Assembly: GCA_903840415.1 (NCBI GenBank)
Contig: CAIMFY010000067.1
Location: forward strand, 1 to 64,000
Direction of reading: 5' to 3'
Length of the DNA: 64,000 nucleotides
From: an uncultured Opitutia bacterium
GTDB taxonomy: Bacteria; Verrucomicrobiota; Verrucomicrobiia; Opitutales; Opitutaceae
The notes beneath the pieces were generated by a model, which had not been told where the DNA came from, searched no databases, and saw only the letters and a list, made by a program, of their open reading frames with translations. Position 1 is the stretch's first letter, and each line of letters begins with the position of its first letter. The position numbers were made by a program, and so were the translations under genes. This document shows positions 5,592 to 58,887 of this stretch, one piece after another.

Positions 5592-5610
5592 TTCGCAAAA
5601 AAATCTCCGC

Positions 5611-23983: not shown

Positions 23984-24263
23984 TTCTTGGTGGTTTAGCG
24001 GCGCAAGAAGCCAATGCCAGCAATATCGCAGGCGCATCTTCCGATTCAAATCGACACCGGTCCCGCTGCCCGCGCCCCAATGTTTGCCAAACCAAATGAA
24101 ATGCCCACCTGCGCTGAATCCCGATAATTTTCACGGGTGAAAACCCACCATTCCCAAGCGAAAATGAACTCCTATCCGCTCGCGGAATGCACCGAGGGAT
24201 TGCCAGCCGACGCGGGAGCGCACACAACCCACCGCTTTCGCGCGGCCTTCGCCCACGCTCCGA

Positions 24264-34786: not shown

Positions 34787-35239
34787 ATGGAACCCACCGC
34801 CGCCCAAACCCTCCCGTCCAATCCCTACAACCCGTTCGCGTGGGTGGCGGGCACGCCTGAAATCGGCGAAGGCGTGTGGATCGGCGCGTTCACGCTCATC
34901 GACGGGCTCGGTGGATTGAAAATCGGCCACGGCTGCAACATCAGCTCCGGCGCGCAAATTCTCTCTCACTCGACTGCGCGCCGCTGCGTGACCGAGCGCA
35001 AGCATCCCGACGTCGACCGCAAGCCGACGGAGCTCGGAGAGTTCGTCTTCGTCGGCGCCAACGCCGTCGTGCAAATGGGCGCCAGGATCGGTCACCATTC
35101 GATCATTGGGGCGGGCGCCGTCGTGCTGGAGGACGCGGACGTGCCGCCCTATTCGCTCGTGGTCGGCGTGCCGGCGCGCGTCGTGCGCGACATCCGCGGC
35201 GAGATCGAAATGTGGAGCCAGGCCGGAGGCACCGCATGA
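34787..35239 (+). CDS. Hexapeptide-repeat acyltransferase
   Basis: 150 residues. Beta-helix turns such as IGEGVWIGAFTLIDG, IGHGCNISSGAQIL and VFVGANAVVQMGARIGHHSIIGAGAVV are followed by PPYSLVVGVPARVV. The insertion STARRCVTERKHPDVDRKP resembles the active-site loop of the xenobiotic/maltose acetyltransferase group with an adjacent His. It lies between a DegT gene (4 bp) and a GT2 gene (ATGA overlap), so it probably acylates the amino sugar made by the preceding two enzymes. Confidence 0.85.
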   Translation: MEPTAAQTLPSNPYNPFAWVAGTPEIGEGVWIGAFTLIDGLGGLKIGHGCNISSGAQILSHSTARRCVTERKHPDVDRKPTELGEFVFVGANAVVQMGARIGHHSIIGAGAVVLEDADVPPYSLVVGVPARVVRDIRGEIEMWSQAGGTA

Positions 35240-36177
35240 GCGAGAAAACGCCCACGCTCTCGATCGTCGTCGCCGCGTTCAACGAGGAGGGCAACCTCCC
35301 TCTAATCCACCAGCGCGTGCTTGCGCTCGACTGGACGGCGCTGGGACTGGCGCCCGAATTTGTCTTCGTCGACGACCACTCGCGCGATCGCACGCCGGCG
35401 ATTCTTCGCGAACTTGCCGCTCGTGATCCTCGCGTGAAGATGCTGCGGTTCTCGAAGAATTTCGGCAGCCACAAGGCGTTCACCGCCGGTCTCGAGCACT
35501 GCACCGGCGATGCCGCCGTCATCCTCGCCGCCGATCTGCAGGATCCGCCGGAGACGATTCCGCAACTCGTGGAAAAGTGGCGCGCCGGCGCGAAGGTCGT
35601 CTGGGCGGTGCGCACTCAGCGTGAGGGCGAGTCGGCCGGCACGAAGTTTTTTTCCGCGCTCTACTGGCACCTCATGCGCCGCTACGCTGAAGTCGAACCG
35701 CCGAAGGCCGGCGCCGATTTCCTCCTCGTCGATCGCCGCGTGATCGACGTGCTGCGCACGTCGCCGGAGAAGCACACCTCGCTGCTTTCCCTGATCCAGT
35801 GGATGGGTTTCGCGCAGGACAGCATTACCTATGTCAAACAGGAGCGCCACAGCGGCCGCTCGAAGTGGACACTGCGGAAAAAGCTCAAGCTCGCCGTCGA
35901 TTCGTTCGTCAGCTTCTCCTATTTTCCGATCCGCGTGATGTCGTCGGTCGGTTTTCTTTTCGCGATCACGGGCTTCGTTTATGCGCTCGTGGTGGCGGTG
36001 CGCGCGATTTTCTACGGCAGTCCGGTGCAGGGCTGGCCGGCGCTGATGTGCGCCGTGCTGATCGTCGGCGGCGTGCAACTCGTGATGCTCGGCGTCCTCG
36101 GCGAATACCTCTGGCGCGCCTTTGACGAGACGCGCGGCCGGCCGCGCTACGTTGTCGAGGAACGCATCAACCTCTGA
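35236..36177 (+). CDS. GT2 glycosyltransferase with C-terminal membrane helices (GtrB/ArnC-like)
   Basis: 313 residues from the ATGA-overlap start at 35236; an upstream open frame is a shadow of the acyltransferase gene. Motifs are SIVVAAFNEEGNLPLI, VFVDDHSRDRT, ILAADLQDPPETI and KQERHSGRSKWTL, then two membrane helices and a GRPRYVVEERI tail. This is the second polyprenyl-phosphate-glycosyltransferase-like enzyme here. It would supply lipid-linked sugar to the membrane protein whose gene starts on the last base of its stop codon. Confidence 0.88.
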   Translation: MSEKTPTLSIVVAAFNEEGNLPLIHQRVLALDWTALGLAPEFVFVDDHSRDRTPAILRELAARDPRVKMLRFSKNFGSHKAFTAGLEHCTGDAAVILAADLQDPPETIPQLVEKWRAGAKVVWAVRTQREGESAGTKFFSALYWHLMRRYAEVEPPKAGADFLLVDRRVIDVLRTSPEKHTSLLSLIQWMGFAQDSITYVKQERHSGRSKWTLRKKLKLAVDSFVSFSYFPIRVMSSVGFLFAITGFVYALVVAVRAIFYGSPVQGWPALMCAVLIVGGVQLVMLGVLGEYLWRAFDETRGRPRYVVEERINL

Positions 36178-38744
36178 TGCGCGCGCTGGTTCAGAAAGCG
36201 CGCGGCACCGTCTTCGTCTGGGAGCGGCGGGGGCGTTTTAGCGGCTCGCTGCTGCTCGGCGACGCGGCGATCGCGCTTTGGCTACTGTTCGCACAACGTG
36301 CCTTCCTCGGACTGCCGCCGGCAAGTTCCCATACGCTGGGAAAATTCGCAGTCGGCACCGCGCTCCTCGCGCTGGTGCTCCAACTCCACGCTTTTCCCGG
36401 CCGAAAATTTCGCTGGCTGTTGGCGAAAGCCGCACTGCTGGCCCCGGCGGTCGCCGTTCTCGCGTCGGCGCTGCACGCCACCACCCCGGCGGCGATCTGG
36501 CTCGGCGGTGCCAGCGCGCTTGCGCTTGTGGCTTTTCGCGCGGCCTACTTTGCCGCGCGTGCCGCTTGGCCGACGCATCCGCTCGAAGCGGCCCGCTGGA
36601 TTTTGCTGGGCGGCGCCGCGACCGCGGTGATGTGGCCGTTTTATCGGGCCGGCTCACTCGGCTCGGGTGACGCTCACTGGTATGCGCTCATGCTTGGCGA
36701 TTTCATCACGCAGCTTCGCGCGGGAATTTTTCCTGTCTGGGCCGGCCAGAGCGAATACGCCTTCAACGGCGCCGTCTCGCCGCTCCGGCTCGCGCCGTGG
36801 TTTCAACACGCCGGCGGCCTCATCGATCTCGTGTCCGTCCACGCTCTCAATTTCGTCGCGATCAAGAACGCCACGGTTGTCCTGACCGCACTCGCCAACG
36901 CCGCCTCGGCTTACGTTTGCCTGCGGCTGATCCTTGCGCAGCGCCCCGGCCTCGCGTGCGTGCTCGCCGCTCTTTTCGTGGCCAGCCCCGGAGTGATCGC
37001 ACCACTCGTGTCGGGCGATCAATACATGACGTTCGTGGCGATGCCGTTTCTGCCGGTCGCGCTTTACGGTTGCTGGCGGGTGTGGACGAGCGACGACTTC
37101 CGGGCACGGCTCGCCCTCGCGGCGGGACTCGGCGGTCTGTGGCTGAGCCACACGCCCGTCGCGATGTGGACGACTTTTTTCGCGATCGCCGCCTGCCTTG
37201 CGAAAGCGTTCGCCCGCCGCGAATGGGCCGCGGATACCCGCCGCGCGTTCCTCACCTCGGCACTCTTTGTGGTGCTCGGCACGTTTCCGATTTTTTCGGT
37301 GCTCGCGATCGACAATCAAAACCACGGAACCGCCAATGGCGCCGTCGCCGCCGAGGAAATTGCGCGCTGCTTCCCCGCCAATTTTCTCCCGCTCAACACC
37401 AACCCCGGTGCCGACCCGCTCTTCTCCTATCAAACGGGTTACGCCGCACTCGGTGCGTTTGCCTTGGCGATGTTCCTGCTTCGCGCGGCTCAGCCTCGCG
37501 GCGCCGCTTTCTTCATTCTCGCCACCTGGTCGATCGCGCTCTTCGTGCTGCCCGTGCCAGGTTTTAGCGAAGCATTTTGGCCGCATGCGCCGGATTGGTT
37601 TATGGCGATCAACAACGTCTGGCCGATGCAGCGCCTCTTTGGGATTTGGACCGCGTTGATGCTTTTCTCGTTTGCTGTGATCGCGAGCGACGATCGGATT
37701 TCGCGACGCACGTGGCTGACGAGCCTGTTGCTCTGCGCACTCTGTGGCGGAAGCGTTTGGTCGTGGCGTGAAGCACAGAAACTTGCCACACACGCTCGGG
37801 CGACCGCCTCCGATGTTGCAGGCACTTTGCTCGCGCTGAAGCCCAGCAACGTCGCCCTCACGCGTTATTCCTGGGCATCGTTTGCCATCACGCCGGCTCA
37901 CGTGAGCCACGGCTACATGGATCCACTGCTGGAGAACCGTCTGCTTGACGGCACGACGTTCGCGGTGCTCACCGCCAATGCCGACCGCGCGGCCCCGTTG
38001 GTGCGCCTCAATCCTGATCCCGTCGTGCTCCCGCGCCTGATCGAAACGGGCACGCTTACGGCGGTGCAGAGTTCACCCGACAACTATCTACTTGAGCCGG
38101 CCCTGCCGCTGGTGCCAGGAAAACGCCATGCGCTGCGGCTAGATTTCTTCCGACCCGAAGCGAAAGGCCTGCTCCAATCTTTCGACGGCCTGATGGGGCG
38201 ACAATATATCCTCCCCGACTCCGGAGAAAATATCATGCATGCCGGTCCGCCGCGCGCCTTCGGTTCGCTGCCGACAAGTTCTCGCGTGATGCCGCTTGAG
38301 ACCGCCGTCGACGTCCCGGTCGCGGTTCATTTTCGTTTTCTTGGCAGCGGCGCGAAGGACTCGCACAGTTTCGCCACGCCACGCTTCGCCTTCGCCCGCT
38401 ACTGGCTCTACACCTACGCGTCCGACGATCTCGCAGTGAAGATCGATTCGCTTCTGCCCTACCGCGCCCGCACCGATGTCGCCCGGGCCGCCTGGCTCGA
38501 GACGCCGCGCATGTGGCTCACCGGCTACCACGCCAAGGTAAACGGCAAACCCGCCGAAGTCCGCCGCTCACCCGACAACCTCGTGATGATCGCGCTTCCG
38601 CCCGGCTCAAGCGCCATCGCGCTCGACTACTTCGCGCCGTGGTGGCTGCGCGGAGTGTTTTGGATTTGCGTGATCGGCTGGGTCGCCGTGGTCACGGCGG
38701 GAATCCGCCGAGTGCTCGCGACTGCCCGCACGCTTCCAGCGTAG
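36177..38744 (+). CDS. Large membrane protein (PTPS-related/YfhO-like paralogue 2)
   Basis: 855 residues; the start overlaps the GT2 stop by 1 bp (TGATG). About 12-13 membrane segments are followed by an extracytoplasmic domain and a terminal helix. The family signature GSGDAHWYALMLGDFITQLR lies near residue 160. MWLTGYHAKVNGKPAEV and SAIALDYFAPWWLRGVFW mark the C-terminus. It is most similar by eye to the gene at 39920-42493. A GT-C-type transferase fed by the adjacent GtrB-like enzyme is the best inference. Confidence 0.8.
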   Translation: MRALVQKARGTVFVWERRGRFSGSLLLGDAAIALWLLFAQRAFLGLPPASSHTLGKFAVGTALLALVLQLHAFPGRKFRWLLAKAALLAPAVAVLASALHATTPAAIWLGGASALALVAFRAAYFAARAAWPTHPLEAARWILLGGAATAVMWPFYRAGSLGSGDAHWYALMLGDFITQLRAGIFPVWAGQSEYAFNGAVSPLRLAPWFQHAGGLIDLVSVHALNFVAIKNATVVLTALANAASAYVCLRLILAQRPGLACVLAALFVASPGVIAPLVSGDQYMTFVAMPFLPVALYGCWRVWTSDDFRARLALAAGLGGLWLSHTPVAMWTTFFAIAACLAKAFARREWAADTRRAFLTSALFVVLGTFPIFSVLAIDNQNHGTANGAVAAEEIARCFPANFLPLNTNPGADPLFSYQTGYAALGAFALAMFLLRAAQPRGAAFFILATWSIALFVLPVPGFSEAFWPHAPDWFMAINNVWPMQRLFGIWTALMLFSFAVIASDDRISRRTWLTSLLLCALCGGSVWSWREAQKLATHARATASDVAGTLLALKPSNVALTRYSWASFAITPAHVSHGYMDPLLENRLLDGTTFAVLTANADRAAPLVRLNPDPVVLPRLIETGTLTAVQSSPDNYLLEPALPLVPGKRHALRLDFFRPEAKGLLQSFDGLMGRQYILPDSGENIMHAGPPRAFGSLPTSSRVMPLETAVDVPVAVHFRFLGSGAKDSHSFATPRFAFARYWLYTYASDDLAVKIDSLLPYRARTDVARAAWLETPRMWLTGYHAKVNGKPAEVRRSPDNLVMIALPPGSSAIALDYFAPWWLRGVFWICVIGWVAVVTAGIRRVLATARTLPA

Positions 38745-38769: not shown

Positions 38770-39852
38770 TCATTTCACCTCCGCGAGCGCCGGCAGGATG
38801 CTCTCAGGCGCCACGCGCTCTGCCCGCAAAATATCGCCGTAGAACAACGACTCCGCCGTCGAGCCACCAATGCGGTTTGCCCCGAGATTGATCTGCTCGG
38901 GCTTCGTAGGATGAAACACACTGGCACAGGCGATGATCGTTTTTCCGTCGAGTTGCACCAAACAGCGGGTGCGAAGCCGCGCCACCACCGGCGAATCGGG
39001 TTTCTTCGGATCGGCCGGCGCCAGCAACGAACCCATGCTAATCGTCAGCTCGTGCGGCAGACCATAGTCGCACGCCATCGGCTCGCTCAGCGGACCGCCC
39101 ACCAGCCAGTGATCGAAGCCGATTCGGATGTGCTGCTCGTCCACGTAGCGCACATAGATAAAGTCTCCCTTGCCGGTCACGCCCGTCACCACGATCGGCT
39201 CGTTTCGGCCGGTGAGATGCTTCGGAAACATCAGTCGGATCCGCACCGGCCCTGGATATTCCGCCTCCTCTTGACCATGCGTCGAGCCCGAGACCAACAG
39301 CGCACGCGACTCGGTCGCCGCCGCCAGCGCCACCTCCGACGCCACGGAGGTCGCGCCATCGATCGTGCCGGAAAAATTTCCGCCTGCGAGCGCGCCACCC
39401 ACAAAATTTTTTCCTAACACGCCCGTCGGCCGAGGCATCGCCGCAAATTTACCTTTCACCGACAGCACCGTGTGCCCGTCGAACTGCACGACCGCAAATT
39501 CCCGCAGCGCCGTTGTATTTCCCTCCAAGTCTCCGGCTGGCAGCAGACTGCCGAGCGAAAGCATCATCGTATGCGTGCCCGCGATCGGCGCGTCGATCGG
39601 TGCAGAAAACACCGCGCCTGTTTCCGTCTGCTCCCAGCCGAAGCAGACTTGCCCGTTCGCGAGCCGGCGGATGACCACGATGTCGCCCGCACCCGGCTGG
39701 CCGACCGAAAGCAACGGCTCAAAGCCCGCGGTCGGCTTCGCTGGCAGCGACACGCGAAATGCCACCGGACCCGTGCCCGTCCACGTCGCAGCCGACGCCA
39801 GCGCCACCGACAGAAAAATCGCGCCCGACCGGGCGAAAGAAAGCAAACGCAT
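38770..39852 (-). CDS. Secreted protein of two FDHWG domains
   Basis: 360 residues from the ATG at 39852, chosen because it gives a clean signal peptide (RLLSFARSGAIFLSVALASA) while the longer frame runs into the divergent neighbour. The mature part is almost entirely two FDHWG domains: residues about 27-165, where the centre reads FGWEQT, and 199-341, with IGFDHWLVGGPLSEP, ISMGSLLAP, VQLDGKTII and FHPTKPEQINLGANRIGGST. There is no membrane anchor or catalytic motif. It faces two paralogue-A membrane genes: 25 bp from the end of one and 67 bp divergent from the other. Confidence 0.75.
   Translation of the reverse strand: MRLLSFARSGAIFLSVALASAATWTGTGPVAFRVSLPAKPTAGFEPLLSVGQPGAGDIVVIRRLANGQVCFGWEQTETGAVFSAPIDAPIAGTHTMMLSLGSLLPAGDLEGNTTALREFAVVQFDGHTVLSVKGKFAAMPRPTGVLGKNFVGGALAGGNFSGTIDGATSVASEVALAAATESRALLVSGSTHGQEEAEYPGPVRIRLMFPKHLTGRNEPIVVTGVTGKGDFIYVRYVDEQHIRIGFDHWLVGGPLSEPMACDYGLPHELTISMGSLLAPADPKKPDSPVVARLRTRCLVQLDGKTIIACASVFHPTKPEQINLGANRIGGSTAESLFYGDILRAERVAPESILPALAEVK
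38828..39772 (-). repeat. FDHWG domains, two copies (secreted form)
   Basis: Copies lie at about 39358-39772 and 38828-39255. Copy 2 carries the best-preserved consensus: EPIVVTGVTGKGDFIYVRYVD, FDHW, GGPLS, MGSLL, QLDGK, FHPTKP, IGGST and FYGDIL in order. Copy 1 keeps EPLLSVG, LSLGSLLP, VQFDGHTVL and FSGTI but has lost the central DHW. Confidence 0.78.
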
Positions 39853-39919
39853 CGCGCGCCAGCAAAGTCTCGCGCCTCGGTGAGACAAGCGGCAAAACTT
39901 CGCCTCGTATTTTTTCGCT

Positions 39920-42493
39920 GTGCCCGCACCGCCCAATCTGCCTTCCCTTGGTCTGCCAGTCCTGCGCCGCAACCGCTTTTCGGCCGGGCTGCTGCTGATG
40001 GATGCGGCAGTGCTCGCGTGGCTCGCCTGGGCGTTCTGCCAGTTCACCGGCCGCACACCGGTTCACGTGATTTGGTTCTGTGGCGGGTCGCTCGCGATGT
40101 CCGGCGTCGCGTGGGCCTTGCTCGGTCACCAGCCTCCGTCGGGGTACTGGCGCGACTGGCTGGCACGCATCTTCCTCTGCGCTGGAGCCCTTTGGTGCGG
40201 GTTTCTGATCACGTTTTCAACTGGACTCGCCTCGACGATCGCCGCCGGTGTTTGGCTCGCCGTCGTCGGCGCCGCGCTGCTGGTCGCGCTGCGGATCGCG
40301 TGGTGGGCCGCGCTCGCGCGACTGCCCGAAACCAAGTGGGAACTCCTGCGCTGGCTCGCACTCGGCGCGCTCGCGGTGTGGGTGTTGCGGCCATATTATC
40401 ACGACGGCGGCATCGGCGCAGGCGACGCCCATTGGTATGCGGTCATGCTCGCTGATTTTGTGGAGCAACTGCGTGCGGGGATATTTCCCGTCTGGACCGG
40501 CCAGAGCGCCTTTGCCTTCAACGGCGCGGTCGTCCCACTGCGCGTCGCACCGCTCTTCCAGCACGAAGGCGGGCTGCTCGACTTGCTCACCGGTCGCGCG
40601 CTCGGACCACTGGCGTTGAAAAACGCCGTGCTCGCGCTGAACGGCCTCGCGATCGTTTTTGCCGCCTACGCCGCCTTTCGCGCGGTGCTGCCGCGGCGGC
40701 CGGATGCGGCGGCGGCGCTCGCGGGATTTTTTGCGGCGAGCCCGGCCGTGCTCGCGCCGCTCTACGCCGGCGATCAAATCATGACGTTCGTCGCGTTGCC
40801 GTTTTTGCCCGCGGTGTTTTACGCCTGCTGGCGAGGCTGGGTGCGCGATGATTTGGCGGCGCGCGTCTGGCTTGTCGCCGGACTGGCCGGGCTCTGGCTG
40901 GCGCATTCGCCGATCGGAATGTGGACGACGGTTTGCGCTGGCGCGCTCTGGCTCGCTCGTCTCGCCATGCGCACCGACCGGAGCGGCGCGTGGCGCGAAC
41001 TCGCGGTGATGGGCGGGCTGTTCTCGCTGCTGGCGTCGTGGCCGTTTCTCTCCATCCTCAGCCTCGACAATCTCAACGCTGTGCCGACCAGCGGCAGCTC
41101 CGTCGCCGAGAATGTCCGGGCGGCGTTTCCCGCCAATTTTCAACCCGTCAGCGCGGATGCCAAAAATATTTCCGACTACCAGCCTGGCTTCGCCGTGCTC
41201 GCGCTCTTCGCCGCCGGTGCGGTGTGGTGGCGAGGACGCCGGGCGCCGGGCGCCATGGGCTTTGCGATGCTGGCGCTGGCACTACCGGCATTGATGCTGC
41301 CCGTGCCGGGGTGGCTCGAATGGTTTTGGACCCACATGCCGCAAACCGTGGTGAACATCACCAACACTTGGCCGATGCAGCGCCTCATGGTCATCTGGGT
41401 CGCGGCGATGTTGTTTTTCGTCGCCAGCGTTCTCGCCGCATCGTGCGGCGAAGAGCATCGGCATCCCGGGGCACTTCGCCTCTTCGCGTGGGCGCTCGCC
41501 CTCCTGTCACTCGCCGCATGGTCGGCCAGCGAAGCAGCCAAGTTTTCCCGCGCCGCCCTAACCACGCGCACCACCGGCGCCGCCGCCGAGCAGGTGCTCG
41601 TCCTACACAACCGGCTGCTCACGCGCTACGCCTACTCGTCGTTTTCCCGCACGCCGTATTATTACAGCCACGGCTACATGGATCCGCTGTGGGAAAATCG
41701 CCTGCTTCGCCCCGGCAGCGAAACGCCTGTCGCCACCAACGCCGAAGGCGCCGTCCACGGCCCTCCGATTGCTCAGGGCGTTTTCATTGCGACCAACGAC
41801 CACCACACGAATTTCTATAACCTCTCGCCCTCGCTCATCCTCGAACCCGGCCGGCGCTATGCGCTCACATTGGATTTCATCGGACGGCCTGAGCCGGCGA
41901 TCCTGCAATTTCGCGGCGGCGGCGTTTTTCGCGAATACGTTTTGCCCGACTCGGGAAATGGCATGTCGCCGTTGCACCTGACGCGGGCGTTTGGCGCGCT
42001 GCCAACCTCGGAGCACACGATCTCGTTGTGGACCGACTCGGCGCGCGCGGTCTCCGTCACCGGCCTCTGCATCGCGCCCGGGCGCGCCCAGGTGGCGACG
42101 TTTCCCTTTGCCCGCTTCTCACTGCACGCCTACCGGCCCGACGACCTGCCGATCCGCGTGACGAGTCTCATGCCTTACCGAGTCATTGCTTACACACCCG
42201 AGCCTGCGTGGCTTGAGACTCCGCGGATGTGGCTCGGCCGCTATCGGGCCACCGTCAACGGCCAAGCCGCCGAAGTGCGCCGCTCCGCCAACAACCTCGC
42301 CATGGTGCGGCTTGATCTCGGCGACAACAACGTAGCGCTCGATTACGCTCCGGGTTTTTGGCTTAGCACTTCCTACTGGGCCATGCTCGCCGGTTGGGCC
42401 ACACTCGCCCTGCTTGCACTGCTCAAAATCCTGACCGCGGCGCGCGACGCCGCTCACTTGCCCACCGGGGCGAGCGCTTCCGGGGCCGGTTGA
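39920..42493 (+). CDS. Large membrane protein (PTPS-related/YfhO-like paralogue 3)
   Basis: 857 residues from a GTG start. The layout equals that of the gene at 36177: membrane half with GAGDAHWYAVMLADFVEQLR near residue 168 and SAFAFNGAVVPLRVAPLFQH; extracytoplasmic part with FREYVLPDSG; terminal MWLGRYRATVNGQAAEVRRS and a last helix. It is isolated on the plus strand, flanked by the two secreted FDHWG proteins, and its last 40 bp overlap the end of the convergent one. Confidence 0.8.
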   Translation: MPAPPNLPSLGLPVLRRNRFSAGLLLMDAAVLAWLAWAFCQFTGRTPVHVIWFCGGSLAMSGVAWALLGHQPPSGYWRDWLARIFLCAGALWCGFLITFSTGLASTIAAGVWLAVVGAALLVALRIAWWAALARLPETKWELLRWLALGALAVWVLRPYYHDGGIGAGDAHWYAVMLADFVEQLRAGIFPVWTGQSAFAFNGAVVPLRVAPLFQHEGGLLDLLTGRALGPLALKNAVLALNGLAIVFAAYAAFRAVLPRRPDAAAALAGFFAASPAVLAPLYAGDQIMTFVALPFLPAVFYACWRGWVRDDLAARVWLVAGLAGLWLAHSPIGMWTTVCAGALWLARLAMRTDRSGAWRELAVMGGLFSLLASWPFLSILSLDNLNAVPTSGSSVAENVRAAFPANFQPVSADAKNISDYQPGFAVLALFAAGAVWWRGRRAPGAMGFAMLALALPALMLPVPGWLEWFWTHMPQTVVNITNTWPMQRLMVIWVAAMLFFVASVLAASCGEEHRHPGALRLFAWALALLSLAAWSASEAAKFSRAALTTRTTGAAAEQVLVLHNRLLTRYAYSSFSRTPYYYSHGYMDPLWENRLLRPGSETPVATNAEGAVHGPPIAQGVFIATNDHHTNFYNLSPSLILEPGRRYALTLDFIGRPEPAILQFRGGGVFREYVLPDSGNGMSPLHLTRAFGALPTSEHTISLWTDSARAVSVTGLCIAPGRAQVATFPFARFSLHAYRPDDLPIRVTSLMPYRVIAYTPEPAWLETPRMWLGRYRATVNGQAAEVRRSANNLAMVRLDLGDNNVALDYAPGFWLSTSYWAMLAGWATLALLALLKILTAARDAAHLPTGASASGAG

Positions 42494-44052
42494 ATTCCGA
42501 TGAGTGTCCCGGTGAACTCCGGCACGCAACTCGACGCGCCGACGGGGTTTTGCCCAAACACGATTTTATCTGGAACAGACGGATGCGAACGCGTCGCGGC
42601 TGCGAGCGCCACGCGGCCATTCAGCATCACGCGCACTTCGTCGCGCCGCGCCCGCAGCGCCGGCTGCTGCTCGAAGAGTGAACTGCCGGCGGGCGGAAAC
42701 AGCGCGCCGAAACTCGCCTCGATCTCCTGCGTCACCGCCGGATCGATCTCAATCGGTGCCGAGACCGGGCCGCCCACGCCCCAGTGATCGAACGCCAGCT
42801 GCACGTGCCGCGCATCCGAGTAGCGCACATAAATTAAATCGGCGGCGCCCGTCGCACCCGTGCAGAGCAGCGGCTCCGCCACCCCGATGCGATCGAGGGG
42901 AAATTTTACCCGTAGCCGCACCGGCCCGGGCCAGCCCTCCCACACCACCGCCGGGGCGCCCATGTGATCCACCACCCGCGCATTAGCGGCGATTACATCA
43001 ACCGCCGCAAGAGCGGTGAGCGACTCGCCCGCGCCATCGAAATATCTTTGCGCCGGGCGCGACTCGACTACATCGGCGCCGAACACGATGTTCTCCGCCC
43101 GCGACGAATGAAACTCCGCCCGCTGCGCCAGCGCCACGCGCCCGTTCAACTCCACGAACAACCAGCCGCGCAATCGCGCGACGTCGGGCTCGCGCTGCGC
43201 CAACTCGTCGTCTGCCGGCGGCAACAAACCATCCGCCGAGATCAGGATTTCCTGCGCGCCCACCCGCAGCGGCAGCGGCTCGGACTCAATCGTGCCCGCA
43301 CCCGCATGCGAGAAACCGATCCGCGCACGTCCATCCGGTTGGACGCTCCAGTAAATCAAGTCGCCCGCGCCGAGCCGGCCGGTCGAGAGCAACGGCTGCC
43401 GCTCGCCGGCAGCATCGGCGGCGGCGCGCACCGCGAGCCGCACCGGCCCTGGAAATCCGCGCCACACCGCGTCGCGCACGACGCCGCGCGCCATCAGCGG
43501 CAACACCGCAGCCGCCACCTCGGATTCGTCTACCGGCACCACGTGAGCGAAAATCCGCTCGTTGAAAACGATCTGGCTCGAACTATCCAACGAAAATTTT
43601 GCCGGCCGCGCGAGCACGACTTTTCCGTCGAGCATCACCAGCAGTTCGCTCGCGAGGTGAAGGAGTTGCGGACGCGCCCAGTAAATTTCGCTCCGCAACG
43701 GCGGCAGCAACGATCCCAGCGAGACCAACAGCTGGTGCGGCCGCACCGACTCGATTGCGATCTCGTCGGACTCGGCGGTGCGCCGGCCTTCGTGCGAAAA
43801 AACAAATCGGGCGCGGCCCGGCCGCGCCACGTGCAGTGCGAGCGTGTCTCGGGCGCCCGCCGCACCGGTCGTCACGAGCGAAAAGTCCCCCTTAGCGGTC
43901 GCGGACAGATTCAGTTCGCCGCGCACCGGTCCCGGCCAGCCGTCCCAGCGCGCCAGCGGTTCGGCGCCCGTCGCGACGGTGGCGCCGAGCGTTAGGAGAA
44001 TAAGGATTCGCGGCAGCAAGCCTCGCGAGAAGACATGCGCCGCGCCCCGCAT
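42454..44052 (-). CDS. Secreted protein of three FDHWG domains
   Basis: 532 residues with a signal peptide (LLPRILILLTLGATVATGA). Three domain copies span residues about 39-169, 200-341 and 374-517. The third is closest to consensus (EPLLCTGATGAADLIYVRYSD, LAFDHWGVGGPVSAPIEID, VMLNGRVAL, FGQNPVGAS, FTGTLIG), while the others read FSHEGRRT and FSHAGAGT at the centre. WPGPVR precedes each copy. There is no catalytic motif. Its start is 1 bp after the stop of the upstream membrane transferase gene, so it is probably translated with it. Its 3' end overlaps the convergent plus-strand gene by 40 bp. Confidence 0.75.
   Translation of the reverse strand: MRGAAHVFSRGLLPRILILLTLGATVATGAEPLARWDGWPGPVRGELNLSATAKGDFSLVTTGAAGARDTLALHVARPGRARFVFSHEGRRTAESDEIAIESVRPHQLLVSLGSLLPPLRSEIYWARPQLLHLASELLVMLDGKVVLARPAKFSLDSSSQIVFNERIFAHVVPVDESEVAAAVLPLMARGVVRDAVWRGFPGPVRLAVRAAADAAGERQPLLSTGRLGAGDLIYWSVQPDGRARIGFSHAGAGTIESEPLPLRVGAQEILISADGLLPPADDELAQREPDVARLRGWLFVELNGRVALAQRAEFHSSRAENIVFGADVVESRPAQRYFDGAGESLTALAAVDVIAANARVVDHMGAPAVVWEGWPGPVRLRVKFPLDRIGVAEPLLCTGATGAADLIYVRYSDARHVQLAFDHWGVGGPVSAPIEIDPAVTQEIEASFGALFPPAGSSLFEQQPALRARRDEVRVMLNGRVALAAATRSHPSVPDKIVFGQNPVGASSCVPEFTGTLIGIQPAPEALAPVGK
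42500..43935 (-). repeat. FDHWG domains, three copies (secreted form)
   Basis: Copies lie at about 43545-43935, 43030-43451 and 42500-42930, separated by linkers of about 30 residues. Each is introduced by a (G)WPGPVR or GFPGPVR strand. The central turn changes from FSHEG to FSHAG to FDHWG. Confidence 0.75.
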
Positions 44053-44053
44053 G

Positions 44054-46903
44054 TCAATGTGTGCCCACCGCCAAAATTCTTCCAGTAAACGCCGTCTCGG
44101 CGGTGGAAAGCCCGATCGCGTTCAACCCCACCGTCGTCTGCTCGCGCGTTGACGGATGAAACGCCTGCGCCACATCCATCACCACGATACCGTTCAGTTC
44201 CACACGCAGCCGGCCGCGCCCCGGATCGCCGGCCGCAAGCAGCGGGCCCCAGGCAATGATGAGTTCTTGTTCCGCATCGAGGTTCACCCGCACCGGTGCC
44301 GACACCTGGCCGCCAACGCCCCAGTGATCGAAACCCAGGCTAACGTGCTCGCTGTCGAGATATTTTACGTAAAGCCCGTCGCCCTTGCCTGTCACACCCG
44401 TGGTCAGCAATGGCTCACGCCCGCCGGATTTTCCCAACGGAAAACGCAACTGCAACCGCAACGGTTGCCCCGACCAAATGGCCGAATCCAGCTCCGTGCG
44501 TTCTAGGCCATGCCTCGGTAATATTTCCATGTCGCCACCAAACAGCCGCCGACTCGTGTCGATGGGAAAAGGCGTGCAACCCGTGAACAGTTGCCAGTCT
44601 CGTGCCGGATGAGTGACGAAGCGCTCCGTCAGAACCGTGTGCCCGTCGAGCCGGACGTTTACCCCACGTTCCCGCCAAAACTCGCGTTGCTCCGTCGTCA
44701 GCCAAGCGCTCGCGGTGAGCGTCCCGAGTTCGATTTCGAATTCGTGCGGCAGCTCGTAGTCAACTGTCAGCGGCGCGGAATACCGCAGCACTGGCCAACC
44801 AGCATGGTGCATCCCCATCCGAATCGTCCGTGGGTCATCGTAGCGAACGCAGACCAAGTCAAAGCGCTCTGATTCGCCCGCGACCACCAGCGGCTCCTGC
44901 ATTCCGAACCGGTCTCGCGGTAGCCGCACGCGAACCCGCACCGGTCCAGACTCGGTCAACTTCTCCTTTAACCACGCGAGATCTGGCCCAAGCCCGCGCA
45001 CAAATCTGATGGTTCCGCCAAAGTCTGGCTCTCCGGCCAAAAATCCCCGCCGCTTTCCCCAAGCCACTTGTCCCGGCGACGCTGCAAAACACTGCGAGTC
45101 GAGCGATAACACCTCCGCCCCGTCCAGCTTCGCTTGCACGTGCGTTGCAAGCCGATCCGCACCCGCTGGCAACGCATCATACCACGGATGCCAAGGCGGG
45201 GGACACAGCGTGCCCAGACTCAAAATCAACTTTCGCCGCTCGCCCGGCCGCAAAGCAAACACCGGACCTTCGCGCCCACCCACGCCTTGATGGTCGAAGC
45301 GCAAACAGGCATGCTCCGCGTCGCGGTAGCACACCATGATCGAATCCACGTCCGTGCCCGCACCCCCGACCAAAAGTGGCTCGACCCGAGTCTGCACCCC
45401 ACGAGGAAAAACGACCTCCGTTTCAATCGTGCCCAGCGCTGGATTCGTCCACCGCCAGAGTGGCCAAACCGCCCGATCGCACCAGCGGGCCAGTCGTTCA
45501 AAACCGTGCCTGTTCCCTTCGAGGAAAAAATGATGCACATGCCAACTGGCCCCCGCGTTCAGAAAAATCAGCCACAAGAGCCAGACGCCTGAAACCGCCG
45601 TCCACCACCGCCGCCCGGCGTGCGCAGCCGCCAGCACGCCGGCCAGCGCCGTCGCAAATAAAACCGGATGAAAATCCAAGGCATAGCGGTTGCTCTGCAC
45701 GGGCGCCATCGCGACGAGGCACAAACTCGCTCCCGCCCAAGCGAGCGCCGCCAGAACGATCGCCCGCAGCGCCGGTTTGTCCCGCACGGAATTTCGACCG
45801 CCGAGAACGAGCGCGAACATCGCGAACCCAAAGAATGGCAGAAACCAAAACTGCCCATGCACCTGCTCAAAATAATATCCTACTGGTTTTGGCCCGGGCG
45901 CCACGAAAGGGAAAAACCAGCCCACATCCGGCGGCGTGAAATAATATACTCGGAGATTTTTCCACACCGACTCCAAGGTAAACGGAAACCCATTCCCGTT
46001 CGATCCGAGTTGATGGTGCAAGCCGAACTCCAGCGGATTTTCGAACCGCGCCCAGTTATACCACAGCAGCGCCACCACGGCTCCGCCGAGCGGCAGTCCG
46101 GCCGCCGCCAGCCAGCGCCAGATTGGAAATTTCTCCCCTGACTTCCACGCGCGCCACCACCGCCAAGCCAGAATCCACGCCAATGCCGCGACGGCGCCAG
46201 CGACCAAAGTCGGCCGTGACCCCACTGCTAAGCCCGCGCACATGCTTGCTACCGTGAGCCAGCGCAGCGCCCGCGCCGGACGCAACACCATCAGAGTCAG
46301 GCAGAGCACGCCGGCAGCCGACCACAGCCAGCCCGCTGTCACCGCCACTTCGTAAAACAACGGGCGGCGCAGCACGACGGGCACGCCGTTCGCCAGACCG
46401 AGCGCCGCAACGAGGCCGATCCATACCACGCCGCCAGCGCGGGGAAAAAATTCGCGTCGCATCAGCGCGAGCCACAGCAGCGCGACGAGATACGCCACCG
46501 ATGCGAGCAGCGGCACCGCCGCCCACTCGGGAAAATCGTGGCCCGTGATCACCTTCCACGGCAGAAACAGCGCGAGCGCCGGCGTCGCACCGAAGTAGAG
46601 AAAATATTTCCCCTTGTAGTAGCTCGCATCGAGCAGCCAGAACGCGTCCGGCGTCACCACCCGGTTCGGCAGCTCCACGCGCAGCGTCGGATCCGGCGTC
46701 ACCTTCATGTAGAGGTGCCCATCCAGGAAACCGTGAACGAGTAGGTTGTAATAATCCTTGGATTCCCCGCCAAACGCCGCGCGGTTTCCACCCGACGCCG
46801 CCGTCCAGAAATAAAACGCGATCACGCCCGCCGCGACGAGCGGCGCAAGCAGTCGCACCAGCCAGGGCCGAGTGCGGTTCAGGCTTTTTTCCTCAGTCGC
46901 CAT
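44054..46903 (-). CDS. GT-C-like membrane protein with three C-terminal FDHWG domains (family B)
   Basis: 949 residues from the ATG at 46903; a longer frame to 46960 would overlap the upstream gene by 82 bp instead of 25. The membrane half (about 15-470) has YYNLLVHGFLDGHLYMKVTPDP and GKYFLYFGATPALALFLPW, the family-B signature. FDHWG domains lie at about 490-632 (LRFDHQGVGG), 651-794 (MGMHHAGWP) and 811-942 (LGFDHWGVGGQVSAPV). It is adjacent to the secreted three-domain protein, consistent with shared substrate recognition. Confidence 0.77.
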   Translation of the reverse strand: MATEEKSLNRTRPWLVRLLAPLVAAGVIAFYFWTAASGGNRAAFGGESKDYYNLLVHGFLDGHLYMKVTPDPTLRVELPNRVVTPDAFWLLDASYYKGKYFLYFGATPALALFLPWKVITGHDFPEWAAVPLLASVAYLVALLWLALMRREFFPRAGGVVWIGLVAALGLANGVPVVLRRPLFYEVAVTAGWLWSAAGVLCLTLMVLRPARALRWLTVASMCAGLAVGSRPTLVAGAVAALAWILAWRWWRAWKSGEKFPIWRWLAAAGLPLGGAVVALLWYNWARFENPLEFGLHHQLGSNGNGFPFTLESVWKNLRVYYFTPPDVGWFFPFVAPGPKPVGYYFEQVHGQFWFLPFFGFAMFALVLGGRNSVRDKPALRAIVLAALAWAGASLCLVAMAPVQSNRYALDFHPVLFATALAGVLAAAHAGRRWWTAVSGVWLLWLIFLNAGASWHVHHFFLEGNRHGFERLARWCDRAVWPLWRWTNPALGTIETEVVFPRGVQTRVEPLLVGGAGTDVDSIMVCYRDAEHACLRFDHQGVGGREGPVFALRPGERRKLILSLGTLCPPPWHPWYDALPAGADRLATHVQAKLDGAEVLSLDSQCFAASPGQVAWGKRRGFLAGEPDFGGTIRFVRGLGPDLAWLKEKLTESGPVRVRVRLPRDRFGMQEPLVVAGESERFDLVCVRYDDPRTIRMGMHHAGWPVLRYSAPLTVDYELPHEFEIELGTLTASAWLTTEQREFWRERGVNVRLDGHTVLTERFVTHPARDWQLFTGCTPFPIDTSRRLFGGDMEILPRHGLERTELDSAIWSGQPLRLQLRFPLGKSGGREPLLTTGVTGKGDGLYVKYLDSEHVSLGFDHWGVGGQVSAPVRVNLDAEQELIIAWGPLLAAGDPGRGRLRVELNGIVVMDVAQAFHPSTREQTTVGLNAIGLSTAETAFTGRILAVGTH
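44077..45434 (-). repeat. FDHWG domains, three tandem copies
   Basis: Copies lie at about 45006-45434, 44521-44949 and 44077-44470. The most C-terminal copy is nearest the consensus and the middle one the most altered, the same gradient as in the related gene at 21101-23983. Confidence 0.75.
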
Positions 46904-49665
46904 ACCCAAAAGCCCAGCAGCCCGCCCCACGTGAGCGCGCTCGTCCACCACGTCACCCACAACGCCGTCGTGCCGACATACCGCAATTCCACGGTGTGCA
47001 ATCCCGCCGGCACCGGCACCATCGCCATCCGCTCAACCGACGAGCGCACCATTGCCAGCTTGCCGTCCACCGTCGCCTCGTAGCCCGGCAGCCAGACGCG
47101 CGAGGTCTCGACGAATCCCGGCCAGCTCATCGCGGCTGTCACCCGATACGGCAGCAGCGAATCGACGCGCACGAGCGCCCGCGCCGCGTCGTAGTGCGAG
47201 ACGGAGACGTTTGCGAAAGGGCTTCCGTCCGACGGCAGCGTGCAGCTGGCGCCGCGGCGAAATGAAAACTCATACCGCTCAGCCACGGTGCCCGAATTCC
47301 ATAGCGAGATAACGCGCGAAGCCTTGGCCGTCGTGCCGAACGCCCGGCGCAATCCCGATTCCGGCAGCGCGTATTCGCGATAACACCTGGCACTGGCGCT
47401 GATCAGAAAGAGAAAACCGGAGTAATTCTTGGCCGAATCAAACTCGAAGCGCAGCAGCACGTGCTCGCCCGGCGCGAGCGTAAGCGTCGGCCCGAGCATG
47501 AGCCACCCCGGAGCCGGCGGCGCGTAAGGCAGGCAAACCAGTTTCAGCTCCGTGCGTCCGCCTTCTTCCATGCGCAGCGCCGTGACGTCCGGGCCAATTC
47601 GCACGCGTTTCAATTCGTCGAGCGCGCGCACTTCGAGCCGCGGATCGATGATGCCGTTAGAATAATAGGTCGGGATCGGCTCCAGATCGTAGGCGAAGCG
47701 TTCGAGCTGGATATTTTCGGAGCGAAATTGTTTTTCGGTATGCGCAAGCGTGGCCGTCACGCGGAAACCTCGGCGCACAATCCCAAACGCCTCATGCACC
47801 GCCCAACCTGCCGCTAAAGCGATCGCCAAGCCGATCAGCAGCCTCGCCGTTCGGCCCCTCGCCGGTTCCGTTGCCAGCCACACGAGCCAACCCATCGCGA
47901 GCAAGCCTGCCCACGCCGGCATGAGGCGTAGCATCAACGTCAATCCCGCCGTCACCCCAAACCATCTCGGGGCATAACCCACCAAGAACTCGCTCACCCA
48001 TGGGATGCGAACGACGATAAATATCGGGAGCAGCGCGACCGCGAACCAAAGCTTCGCCGCGAGCGGTCGCGCTCGAAAAAAACCCACAGCCAGCACCGCG
48101 AGCGCCAGCCACAAACCAAGCCCCGGCTGCGAGTCGCTCGGCTGGTTCACGAGTGGTGAGAGCGGCAGAAAAAAGTGCCCGGAAATTGTGGCGTTGAGGT
48201 TCAGATCCTGAAGTCGGCTCTCATCGCGCGCCGGATTGTTCGGACCAAGCCAGGCCTGTGTGAGTCCGGCCGCCAGCAGCGCGCAGGGAAACAGGATTTC
48301 GATCGTGTGTTCTGCCGGATTGAACCTACGGCGCCAGCGCGCCAGCGCCACCACAGCCAGGGCGAGCAGAGCAGTTGCCACCATCCACCACAGCCATGGC
48401 GCGCGTCCGACCCACAGCAGCCAGCCACCCGGAGCCAGCAAGAGCAGCCACCACATTCCCCGCCGTCGCAGCACCGCACCGGCGAGGCCGGCCAGCCAGA
48501 GCGCAATTCCGCCAATTTGAAAAACGTCATCGCGCAGTGAAATCGGCTCCCGCGACGGGAGTTCGCTCATGCCATAAAAATAATACGCCCCGAGTCCCGC
48601 GAATAGCAGCGCGCCCAGCGCCGCGGCACGCAGGCGTGCCGGCGTGACTTCGCCGCAAAGCAAACCGCCGCCCTGTAACAGCAGCGTCGCCATCGTCGCG
48701 AGCATCGCGATGGGCGGATGGCACATCCACGCGAGCGCGAGTCCCGCCGCGAGCGACACGTAACCTCGGCCGTCGGCCGCGAGCAGCACGCGCGCGTTTC
48801 CGTAAAAGGCCAGCGGCAGCACGGCGATTGCCATCCAAGTCATGTAGGCGTCGGCATGGTAAAGCGCCTCGAGCGAGGCCGGCGCGCCGAGGTAAAGCAG
48901 CGCGACCGCCGCGGCTTCCCATCGGTATCGCGGTGCCAATGCCACACCGGCTGCATACATTCCGAGCCCACCCGCGAGCGCCGCCGTGATCGCGGCGAGG
49001 TGTTGCAGCGCACACGTCTCGAGCGCCCGGAACGTGAGCACATCCCACAACCCCGCCACATGCATGAACACCGGCGCGGAGCGAAACGGATGCACGCCGC
49101 CGTTCCATGCGAGTTCACCCTGTCCCACGAAAACGGGAAACACGCCCGCGCGCAGTTGCGCGACGAAGTCGCCCAGCATGTAGGCATACCAGCGGGCGTC
49201 CGTGCCACCGACGAGCCGGTCGGTGAATAGCGGCAGTGTCACCGCGGTCGCCGCCGCCCCGACGAGCAGCACGCGCACGGCGTCGCCCGTGCTGTCGTCG
49301 CTGTGTGCCGCCGTTGCTGCCGACCACAAGCGCCAGCCCCGCATAAGCACCGCCACGAGGAGGAGCGCGTAGAGCGTCTGGCCCAGTGTGAATCCGCCAT
49401 GACCCCAAGCGCTGAGTTCGTTCAATAGAAATCCCGGAGCCACCACCTCGGCGAGTGCCGCGCCCCACGCCGGCAAAATCGCACGCGTCAGATCCGCGCG
49501 CACCACGAGGATCGCGACCGCCCATGCCCCCCAAGCTGCGAAAAATTGCCCGACCCCGAGCCGCAAGTTGGCGAGAGCATCCATTGCAAAAAGTGCCAGC
49601 GCCACGAGCAAAAGTTCCCCGGCCAACAGCACGGTCACCCTGAAAAAACCGGCACGTGGGTGCAT
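46879..49665 (-). CDS. Large membrane protein (PTPS-related/YfhO-like paralogue 4)
   Basis: 928 residues from the ATG at 49665; the frame is open to 49710 but that would enter the GtrA gene. It carries GGTDARWYAYMLGDFVAQLR near residue 155, QGELAWNGGVHPFRSAPVF, CYREYALPESGLRRAFG and, at the end, VWLPGYEATVDGKLAMVRS before the last membrane helix. By eye it is closer to the gene at 8483-11305 than to the two plus-strand paralogues. It overlaps the next gene in the operon by 25 bp. Confidence 0.8.
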   Translation of the reverse strand: MHPRAGFFRVTVLLAGELLLVALALFAMDALANLRLGVGQFFAAWGAWAVAILVVRADLTRAILPAWGAALAEVVAPGFLLNELSAWGHGGFTLGQTLYALLLVAVLMRGWRLWSAATAAHSDDSTGDAVRVLLVGAAATAVTLPLFTDRLVGGTDARWYAYMLGDFVAQLRAGVFPVFVGQGELAWNGGVHPFRSAPVFMHVAGLWDVLTFRALETCALQHLAAITAALAGGLGMYAAGVALAPRYRWEAAAVALLYLGAPASLEALYHADAYMTWMAIAVLPLAFYGNARVLLAADGRGYVSLAAGLALAWMCHPPIAMLATMATLLLQGGGLLCGEVTPARLRAAALGALLFAGLGAYYFYGMSELPSREPISLRDDVFQIGGIALWLAGLAGAVLRRRGMWWLLLLAPGGWLLWVGRAPWLWWMVATALLALAVVALARWRRRFNPAEHTIEILFPCALLAAGLTQAWLGPNNPARDESRLQDLNLNATISGHFFLPLSPLVNQPSDSQPGLGLWLALAVLAVGFFRARPLAAKLWFAVALLPIFIVVRIPWVSEFLVGYAPRWFGVTAGLTLMLRLMPAWAGLLAMGWLVWLATEPARGRTARLLIGLAIALAAGWAVHEAFGIVRRGFRVTATLAHTEKQFRSENIQLERFAYDLEPIPTYYSNGIIDPRLEVRALDELKRVRIGPDVTALRMEEGGRTELKLVCLPYAPPAPGWLMLGPTLTLAPGEHVLLRFEFDSAKNYSGFLFLISASARCYREYALPESGLRRAFGTTAKASRVISLWNSGTVAERYEFSFRRGASCTLPSDGSPFANVSVSHYDAARALVRVDSLLPYRVTAAMSWPGFVETSRVWLPGYEATVDGKLAMVRSSVERMAMVPVPAGLHTVELRYVGTTALWVTWWTSALTWGGLLGFWVWRLRKKA

Positions 49666-49690
49666 CGTTCGGATTTGCCGCTCGTGTCCG

Positions 49691-50083
49691 TCAGCCGCGG
49701 GCGGTCGCAAACACCCGGAATTGCATCACCACAAACGCCAACGCCATCTGCGCCACCGTCGACACGCCCGACGCCACCCATGACGCCATCGGCGTGAAGT
49801 GCGTGAGCAGTTTAAAGCACGTGGTCTGGATCAGGAAAGCGGCCAGCGTCATCAAAAAATACCCCGACACCTGCCGTCTCCCCACCGCGCTCCGATCGCG
49901 AAACGTCCACCACTTGTTCAGGGAAAAATGCAGCGCGATCGTCGGGGGATAAGCCGCGAAAAATGCCAGATCCGCACCCAACCGCGGCGCCAGCCACCAA
50001 TTGAGCCCCATGAAAAAAAGCGTGACAGTGCTGCCGACCAAGCCGAAGCGCAGCACGCGCCGCATGAGTTCCGAATTCAACAT
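49691..50083 (-). CDS. GtrA-family membrane protein (lipid-linked sugar flippase)
   Basis: 130 residues with four membrane helices, full length for GtrA. Landmarks are RRVLRFGLVGSTVTLFFMGLNW at the N-terminus and the central FSLNKWWTFRD, the family hallmark (NFxLNKxWTF). Characterised relatives help to move undecaprenyl-phosphate-linked sugars across the inner membrane. The two GtrB/ArnC-like GT2 enzymes at 18345 and 35236 are candidate partners, and the GT-C-like proteins around it would use the flipped sugar. Confidence 0.88.
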   Translation of the reverse strand: MLNSELMRRVLRFGLVGSTVTLFFMGLNWWLAPRLGADLAFFAAYPPTIALHFSLNKWWTFRDRSAVGRRQVSGYFLMTLAAFLIQTTCFKLLTHFTPMASWVASGVSTVAQMALAFVVMQFRVFATARG

Positions 50084-52626: not shown

Positions 52627-52651
52627 GAGATGCGAAGCAAAGGAGCGCGCC

Positions 52652-55981: not shown

Positions 55982-56055
55982 CGTTCTCCGATCTGGAGCC
56001 GCGCCCGAATAAAACCTTGCGTGTGCATTTCGCGTCAGCAAAGGCTCCGCGCCTC

Positions 56056-58151: not shown

Positions 58152-58155
58152 TCCG

Positions 58156-58878: not shown

Positions 58879-58887
58879 ACCTATCCC

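Follow-up and report, generated by a model that had tools for sequence, protein, structure and literature searches.

How glycosyltransferases (GTs) of the GT-C type recognise a long polymer outside the cytoplasm is only partly understood. A 64,000-nucleotide stretch of an uncultured Opitutia bacterium of the Opitutaceae (positions 1 to 64,000 of contig CAIMFY010000067.1, assembly GCA_903840415.1; hereafter the window) raises this question through two genes, at 38770-39852 and 42454-44052. Both encode predicted secreted proteins made only of FDHWG domains, and they lie on either side of a gene for a YfhO-like membrane protein, 39920-42493. The original prediction, made from the sequence alone, had suggested that such stand-alone proteins are exported glycan-binding or chaperone-like proteins, or relics of transferases that lost their membrane half. 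Here, we propose, with a probability of about one half, that both proteins act in trans in the periplasm, as carbohydrate-binding subunits of neighbouring YfhO-like GT-C glycosyltransferases. Window genes are named below by their first coordinate (Table 1), and G, C and L numbers are our handles for genomes, contigs and loci. "YfhO-like" is a descriptive label, the Pfam cut-off of PF09586 (YfhO) being unmatched: 39920 gives no match and 36177 scores 14.2 bits against 28.5.

The two proteins are indeed arrays of one domain. With protein 1 (38770) as sole query, the three copies in protein 2 (42454) were retrieved at E-values of 9.5e-33, 1.2e-18 and 2.1e-7, and the five copies of both proteins score 9e-40 to 4e-58 with a profile iterated on the same sequences, far beyond chance. 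Hydropathy shows no membrane segment besides the signal in either protein. In a simple pattern check, both N-termini resemble signal peptides, with a positively charged n-region, then a hydrophobic core, and with small residues at -3/-1, so that both proteins are putatively exported. The base composition by codon position of the stand-alone genes resembles that of neighbouring genes. As had been noticed, the start codon of 42454 lies 1 bp past the stop of 44054-46903 (TGA C ATG), which itself has three domains. Gene 42454 also overlaps 39920-42493 tail-to-tail by 40 bp. Hence, 42454 faces the middle gene as described, but 38770 does not: it is arranged head-to-head with 39920-42493, with 67 bp separating the start codons used, and tail-to-tail with the second membrane gene, 36177-38744, at a gap of 25 bp.

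The FDHWG domain spans about 141 residues. The iterated profile detects 17 copies (2e-32 to 4e-58) in six window proteins, namely proteins 1 and 2 together with four membrane proteins of what we call F-type and P-type (21101, 44054, 50134 and 52652). Pfam and NCBIfam scans returned no family for the domain, nor for the F-type and P-type membrane proteins of the window. At an E-value of 1e-5, the domain occurs in at least 65 of 252 Opitutaceae genomes and at least 17 of 49 genera, the tallies being lower bounds because 15 candidates were scored per genome. Samples of the order (at least 5 of 223 genomes) and of the phylum (at least 5 of 337) gave the same five genomes, all Opitutaceae; here and in the search for relatives of protein 1, some candidates per genome were scored, so that these are lower bounds too. 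A scan with a six-row alignment found seven named loci on six contigs, all seven from Opitutus, Opitutaceae or Opitutia metagenome-assembled genomes, and a plasmid search gave no domain match. The window's own genome holds two further partial copies near contig ends, G000:C40:62408-62668(+) and G000:C8:32560-32748(-), possibly one gene split by assembly.

The second domain of protein 1 was modelled with AlphaFold2 on an alignment of 61 copies, taken from the window and from the named loci. The model has a mean predicted local distance difference test score (pLDDT) of 97.1 and a predicted template modelling score of 0.91. Among the known families that the fold lists name, the nearest solved folds in Foldseek are laminin-G and CBM40 (E 6e-4 to 1e-3), with the laminin-G domain of SHBG at 5.9e-4 and CBM40 at 7.7e-4. 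VIA-align places a NanB sialidase domain, galectin-7 and lichenase at Z 10.3-10.5, the best match having Z 10.5 and a root-mean-square deviation (rmsd) of 2.9 over 127 residues. A concanavalin-like jelly roll of laminin-G type is thus a high-confidence prediction for the FDHWG domain. A profile search of solved structures returned agrin, which agrees with this fold, at E 0.0024 and three mycobacterial chains at E 0.1. At the sequence level, the laminin-G family PF02210 touches 2 of the 61 domains (best E 0.056) and gives no match to the modelled one.

The last domain of each array is distinct from the others. In a comparison of 142 last with 186 other domains, uncorrected for relatedness, five positions were more conserved in the last domain: D (89% vs 38%), W (92% vs 26%), N (97% vs 60%), G (91% vs 43%) and S (80% vs 37%). 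All five, with S or T at the fifth, are present in 110 of the 142 last domains, as compared to 16 of the 186 others. Together, they form a putative site with the motif D-H-W ... N-x-I-G-x-S. Both window proteins have five of five positions in their last domain, as against 0 to 2 in the earlier ones. The signal-like N-termini and the lectin-type fold, both predicted, agree with the idea of exported glycan-binding proteins. The concanavalin-like fold is rich in sugar binders but is in itself no proof of binding.

The middle gene had been described as transferase-like, which the predicted fold of its product supports. A model of the 39920 protein, with a pLDDT of only 61.6, gave six Foldseek rows with E ≤0.001, all of them GT-C (Emb arabinosyltransferases and oligosaccharyltransferases). 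With VIA-align, the top match is AftD (Z 14.8, rmsd 6.5 over 392 residues), followed by AftA (13.6) and then by oligosaccharyltransferase, PMT, PglB and ArnT; for helical models, Z values below about 13 may arise by chance. The protein is therefore probably a GT-C glycosyltransferase. A G-x-x-D/E position, which would lie in the first extracytoplasmic loop, is D or E in all seven aligned rows and is a candidate for the acidic residue expected of a GT-C there. A search of 39920-42493 for the FDHWG domain found no copy.

A link between the soluble arrays and these enzymes is suggested by the distribution of the domain in one GT-C clade. In trees of first 52 and then 71 YfhO-like sequences, 36177 and 39920 belong to a clade of nine full-length or near-full-length YfhO-like GT-Cs (support 1.0), all nine with the domain either fused or adjacent. 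Four members are fused to three C-terminal domains (in G192, G193, G198 and G201). Four are domain-less and lie beside a stand-alone gene (36177, 39920, G113:17968-20565 and G200:87053-89626), with a 25-bp gap or overlaps. The ninth, on G162:C278, is also domain-less, and its gene shares 29 bp with a P-type gene carrying three domains. When short sequences were added, the clade was kept (0.998) and two partial members joined it. One of them, on G201:C5, is cut off by the contig end ahead of its C-terminus; counting the other, nine of the ten members with a judgeable C-terminus follow this cis/trans pattern. In the four fused genomes, all matches listed fall in frames of at least 713 amino acids, except for a 192-residue frame at a contig start in G193. 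None of the 11 nearest relatives outside the clade has the domain in cis, with G018:C18 running off its contig and G060:C8 having a broken frame, and no stand-alone gene was seen adjacent to them, several contigs being short; a domain-bearing membrane protein lies 483 bp from an outside relative in G244 and 1.5 kb away in G060:C8. Separately, we observed a cassette of P-type, GT2 and YfhO-like genes that is free of the FDHWG domain in G050:C24, G060:C85 and G049:C101 (L135, L139, L140), possibly the form before domain addition. We rejected the notion that domain-less YfhO-like GT-Cs always need the domain, as such enzymes are present in G242 and G245, two genomes giving no match to it.

Stand-alone forms recur outside the window. 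We fetched stretches around part of the matches in 41 genomes, covering 39 of the 65 domain-positive Opitutaceae genomes, and obtained 152 frames with the domain. Among these are at least seven complete stand-alone proteins, from five genomes that each belong to a different genus. The count leaves out frames at contig edges (two in G190, G107:72155-73000, G194:C31, G162:C278 and G193:C36), two frames with a remnant of the membrane half (G125:C221, 417 residues, and G243:C244, 332 residues), a broken frame (G023:C86), a 142-residue frame in G247, decayed copies (G001:C27 and G113:C14) and seven single-domain proteins whose membrane half follows the domain (in G001, G007, G010, G107 and G174). 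Of the seven stand-alone genes, five overlap a domain-less YfhO-like gene or lie at most 118 bp from one, so that the recurrence looked for beside the same membrane genes was found. In a subset of the stretches, a domain-less YfhO-like gene lies within 200 bp of 5/7 stand-alone but of 13/134 membrane-type genes (Fisher p 3.5e-4), a value that is indicative since the two window proteins share one neighbour and the stretches were partly chosen for short frames.

Several observations weigh against a role of the arrays as GT-C subunits. The second partial clade member, G023:C86:9395-10534, is cut at its N-terminus and ends domain-less, and no domain gene lies closer to it than a P-type gene at 4.7 kb, the frame of which is interrupted; because this member is neither fused nor adjacent, we lowered the probability of our proposal from about 0.55 to about 0.5. 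The enclosing clade has a support of 0.984, which falls to 0.446 with the partial sequences added. YfhO-like GT-Cs exist in the two genomes mentioned above that give no domain match. The stand-alone genes of G051 and G200:80222-81643 are not beside a domain-less YfhO-like gene, and the G051 protein has one of the five last-domain site positions and no clear cleavage motif. Covariation of the site in non-last domains is partial (W-S p 7e-9, D-S p 7e-14, W-N p 0.23), while control pairs of W with two other positions give p 0.03-0.05. The stand-alone domains have their nearest relatives elsewhere than in the tails of the fused YfhO clade. Finally, a shared fold does not show function. As for related enzymes, the cis carbohydrate-binding module (CBM) of the GT-C ORF12 was dispensable (PMC11127046), and for Bacillus subtilis YfhO an extra specificity factor seemed unnecessary (PMC7389260), in the parts of these papers covered.

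Some of these facts would suit secreted proteins that bind polysaccharide in an independent role, such as retaining, shielding or escorting the exported polysaccharide or serving in assembly at the outer membrane, rather than GT-C subunits. Such proteins would equally be expected to have export signals, a lectin fold and a location in a polysaccharide locus. The two stand-alone genes away from a domain-less YfhO-like gene agree with this explanation, as do the G023 clade member with no adjoining domain gene and the situation in G051, where all three listed domain matches lie within the stand-alone protein. On the other hand, an independent job does not predict the pattern of the GT-C clade or the enrichment beside domain-less GT-Cs, and most other domain-bearing proteins are membrane proteins. 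Overall, we regard it as doubtful, though deserving serious attention.

The origin of the arrays bears on whether they are relics, that is, GT-Cs that lost their membrane half and are now functionless. In a tree of 291 domains, which leaves out the G051 protein and later stretches, 9 of the 15 stand-alone domains fall within a clade of P-type tails like that of 50134 (support 0.989; 21 P-type, 9 stand-alone, 3 double GT-C and 2 F-type leaves). In the two window proteins and the G113 protein, the last domain groups with F-type last domains (0.927), so that some of the arrays are mosaics. The three domains of the G162 stand-alone protein match an F-type tail in order, which marks this array, on sequence grounds, as one of independent origin. 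The first domains of three stand-alone proteins group with a support of only 0.67. The tails of the fused YfhO clade had been expected as closest relatives, and the tree ruled this out. As judged from this tree, then, stand-alone arrays derive from tails of GT-C type, and to this extent the earlier suggestion of relics holds.

Decayed and truncated forms do exist. On G001:C27, in the same genus as the window, a decayed F-type gene (L076, about 22291-24383, minus strand) partly keeps its domains while pieces of its membrane half lie in several frames, which makes it a real relic; G125:C221 and G243:C244, with their membrane-half remnants, are relic-like, and the site of the G051 protein is degraded. 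Loss of function, however, fits the stand-alone genes poorly. Their frames are uninterrupted, with export-like signals and codon-position composition like that of their neighbours, and six of the seven proteins keep four or five of the five last-domain site positions. Protein 1 has counterparts in two other genera: among the matches listed, its closest relative is the stand-alone G113 protein (47% identity, E 1.5e-74), followed by the tail of a 1953-residue G113 protein (37%, 1.9e-61) and a G200 stand-alone protein (37%, 4.8e-57). A homologue with an intact upstream membrane half thus exists in the 1953-residue protein, but the closest relative is itself a stand-alone form. Upstream of the G162 stand-alone gene lies a divergent YfhO-like gene and not a lost half. 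These features suggest that the arrays are still in use, and we consider decay products an unlikely explanation. The 1953-residue chain (G113:C89, L055:10884-16745(+)) thus unites two membrane units of transferase-like character: a YfhO-like half, closest to 46879, is joined to a P-type half resembling 50134, and three FDHWG domains complete the protein.

The surroundings provide a setting in which GT-C subunits could act. The three-component Gtr set is complete in the locus, with a GtrA flippase, a GtrB-type GT2 and a predicted GT-C, which would cooperate. There are two GtrB-like GT2 genes (PF00535, 97.8 and 99.4 bits), sugar genes, and an MBOAT gene followed by a weakly SGNH-like gene (17.1 bits, with the cut-off at 32.9). 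Presumably, as in established systems of this kind, the locus serves an ABC-exported O-polysaccharide that is decorated in the periplasm. Under our proposal, Wzm/Wzt would export the polysaccharide, the GtrB-like GT2 would make a polyprenyl-phosphate sugar and GtrA would flip it, and the GT-C (36177 or 39920) would transfer the sugar onto the polysaccharide in the periplasm. This GT-C lacks the tail that some close relatives have in cis, and the secreted domain array would supply it. The last domain, with its D-H-W ... N-x-I-G-x-S site, would grip the polysaccharide, and the degenerate N-terminal domains may be spacer or docking units. In this scheme, we infer the glycan binding, the identity of the ligand, the physical partnership and the roles of the individual domains. 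The soluble copies might instead act as regulators or decoys, binding finished polysaccharide or competing with cis tails and so limiting decoration, as four other window proteins have the domain in cis and could be competed with for ligand. However, within the clade the stand-alone genes accompany GT-Cs that have no cis tail, a pattern that speaks for supply and against competition and makes decoys very improbable.

Table 1 Coordinates of the stand-alone proteins, neighbouring genes and related forms in other genomes.
Feature	Position	Strand	Remarks
Stand-alone secreted protein 1	38770-39852	-	360 residues; predicted signal peptide and two FDHWG domains; uninterrupted frame
Protein 1, predicted signal peptide	39793-39852	-	Heuristic only; end approximate
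Protein 1, domain 1	39361-39771	-	Site mostly lost (2/5 positions)
Protein 1, domain 2	38830-39252	-	Last-domain site 5/5; modelled, mean pLDDT 97.1
Stand-alone secreted protein 2	42454-44052	-	532 residues; predicted signal peptide and three FDHWG domains; uninterrupted frame
Protein 2, predicted signal peptide	43963-44052	-	Heuristic only; end approximate
Protein 2, domain 1	43549-43932	-	Site lost (0/5)
Protein 2, domain 2	43033-43449	-	Site lost (0/5)
Protein 2, domain 3	42502-42927	-	Last-domain site 5/5
Domain-less YfhO-like GT-C, between the stand-alone genes	39920-42493	+	857 residues; predicted fold
Domain-less YfhO-like GT-C	36177-38744	+	855 residues; same clade as 39920
GtrB-like GT2, candidate polyprenyl-phosphate sugar synthase	35236-36177	+	PF00535, 97.8 bits
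F-type membrane protein, three FDHWG domains	44054-46903	-	1 bp upstream of protein 2
Domain-less YfhO-like membrane protein	46879-49710	-	Other clade
GtrA-family flippase	49691-50083	-	PF04138, 52 bits
P-type membrane protein, two FDHWG domains	50134-52665	-	
F-type membrane protein, four FDHWG domains	52652-56041	-	
F-type membrane protein, three FDHWG domains	21101-24049	-	
Wzm-like ABC2 permease and Wzt-like ATPase with Wzt_C domain	4731-6978	+	Presumed export of acceptor polysaccharide
Stand-alone form beyond the window	G113:C89:16770-17996		
Stand-alone form beyond the window	G200:C87:80222-81643		
Stand-alone form beyond the window	G200:C87:89616-91391		
Stand-alone form beyond the window	G162:C287:157-1731		
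Stand-alone form beyond the window	G051:C217:825-2426		
Permuted single-domain protein	G001:C43:121993-124125		
Permuted single-domain protein	G007:C23:33464-35581		
Permuted single-domain protein	G007:C23:480969-483131		
Permuted single-domain protein	G010:C33:230225-232675		
Permuted single-domain proteins	G107:C30		Two proteins
Permuted single-domain protein	G174:C20:68492-70828		
Permuted single-domain protein	G125:C269		
Permuted single-domain protein	G147:C130:67134-69317		

Other genes and arrangements were observed alongside. In the window, GHMP kinase, nucleotidyltransferase and SIS-domain genes adjoin at 57168-59499, a set that we take to be suggestive of a nucleotide-activated heptose pathway. 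A 1218-residue membrane protein with a large C-terminal region (14667-18323, plus strand) has no credible Pfam match and is adjoined by the GtrB-like GT2 gene at 18345-19277. In other genomes, at least nine proteins show a permuted form, with a single FDHWG domain N-terminal to the membrane half. In a G007 protein (L119:5532-7526(-), equal to G007:C18:30532-32526), the domain is N-terminal to a homologue of the SGNH-like gene of the window (25460-26671; 31% identity over 397 residues), which presumably encodes an enzyme that modifies polysaccharide as well, and a gene resembling, by eye, the window MBOAT gene adjoins this fusion, which fits a module shared by enzymes acting on one acceptor.

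Taken together, these data lead us to put forward, tentatively and at slightly less than even odds, a two-chain GT-C glycosyltransferase, in which a catalytic membrane subunit works with an exchangeable array of secreted lectin domains, the array determining the polysaccharide that is gripped. The module would switch between cis and trans within one enzyme clade and would be shared with an O-acetylation-type enzyme of the same pathway. The fused and separate states of the domain offer a direct natural test of whether the soluble protein can stand in, in trans, for the cis tail. If it can, laboratory glycoengineering could swap the module in order to redirect how polysaccharides are decorated.

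GT-Cs that carry a CBM in cis are already known, as in EmbB and AftD according to the parts covered of PMC7341804 and PMC11127046, and a separate partner has been speculated upon or proposed. A 2021 review, as far as covered, offers the speculation that acceptor binding by smaller GT-Cs may depend on a second protein (PMC8035078), and the portion covered of a 2025 study proposes lipoproteins in this role in mycobacteria (PMC12802301). What is new here is an undescribed domain that is fused in some species and separate and secreted in others; in the titles and abstract openings covered, we found no prior description of the FDHWG domain.

Comparison with known systems places the window proteins among several partial parallels. 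Three-component Gtr and CsbB-GtcA-YfhO systems share with the window the combination of a GT2, a GtrA flippase and a YfhO-like GT-C within a single locus; in the literature covered, however, they have no secreted domain array as an extra component, and the Pfam YfhO cut-off is not reached here. EmbA/B/C and AftD, the latter being the best fold match of the window GT-C, attach to their GT-C core beta-sandwich domains on the extracytoplasmic side, for which binding of the acceptor polysaccharide has been shown or is assumed (PMC7341804 and PMC11127046, in part). Unlike in the window, these CBMs are in the same chain, whereas the domain described here is of another family and resides, in some species, on a separate secreted protein. 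In the text covered of PMC11127046, ORF12 (GT136) of Citrobacter youngae is a periplasmic O-polysaccharide GT-C whose C-terminal CBM binds unmodified polysaccharide, but this CBM is immunoglobulin-like, in cis and not essential under the conditions tested. Malectin is a separate lectin associated with a GT-C complex, the oligosaccharyltransferase, yet it belongs to eukaryotic quality control and interacts with ribophorin I (PMC9144812, as far as covered). A further parallel is offered by the mycobacterial pairs LpqZ/AftA and FecB/AftB, for which the covered part of PMC12802301 proposes a separate exported protein as a CBM-like partner of a CBM-less GT-C. In that account, LpqZ and FecB are lipoproteins resembling substrate-binding proteins. 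The window proteins are instead jelly-roll arrays: the domain model does not have the substrate-binding-protein fold, and the signal regions of proteins 1 and 2 contain no cysteine, hence no lipobox of the LpqZ/FecB type. Moreover, and unlike LpqZ and FecB, the same module is found here both on separate proteins and fused to relatives of the enzyme.

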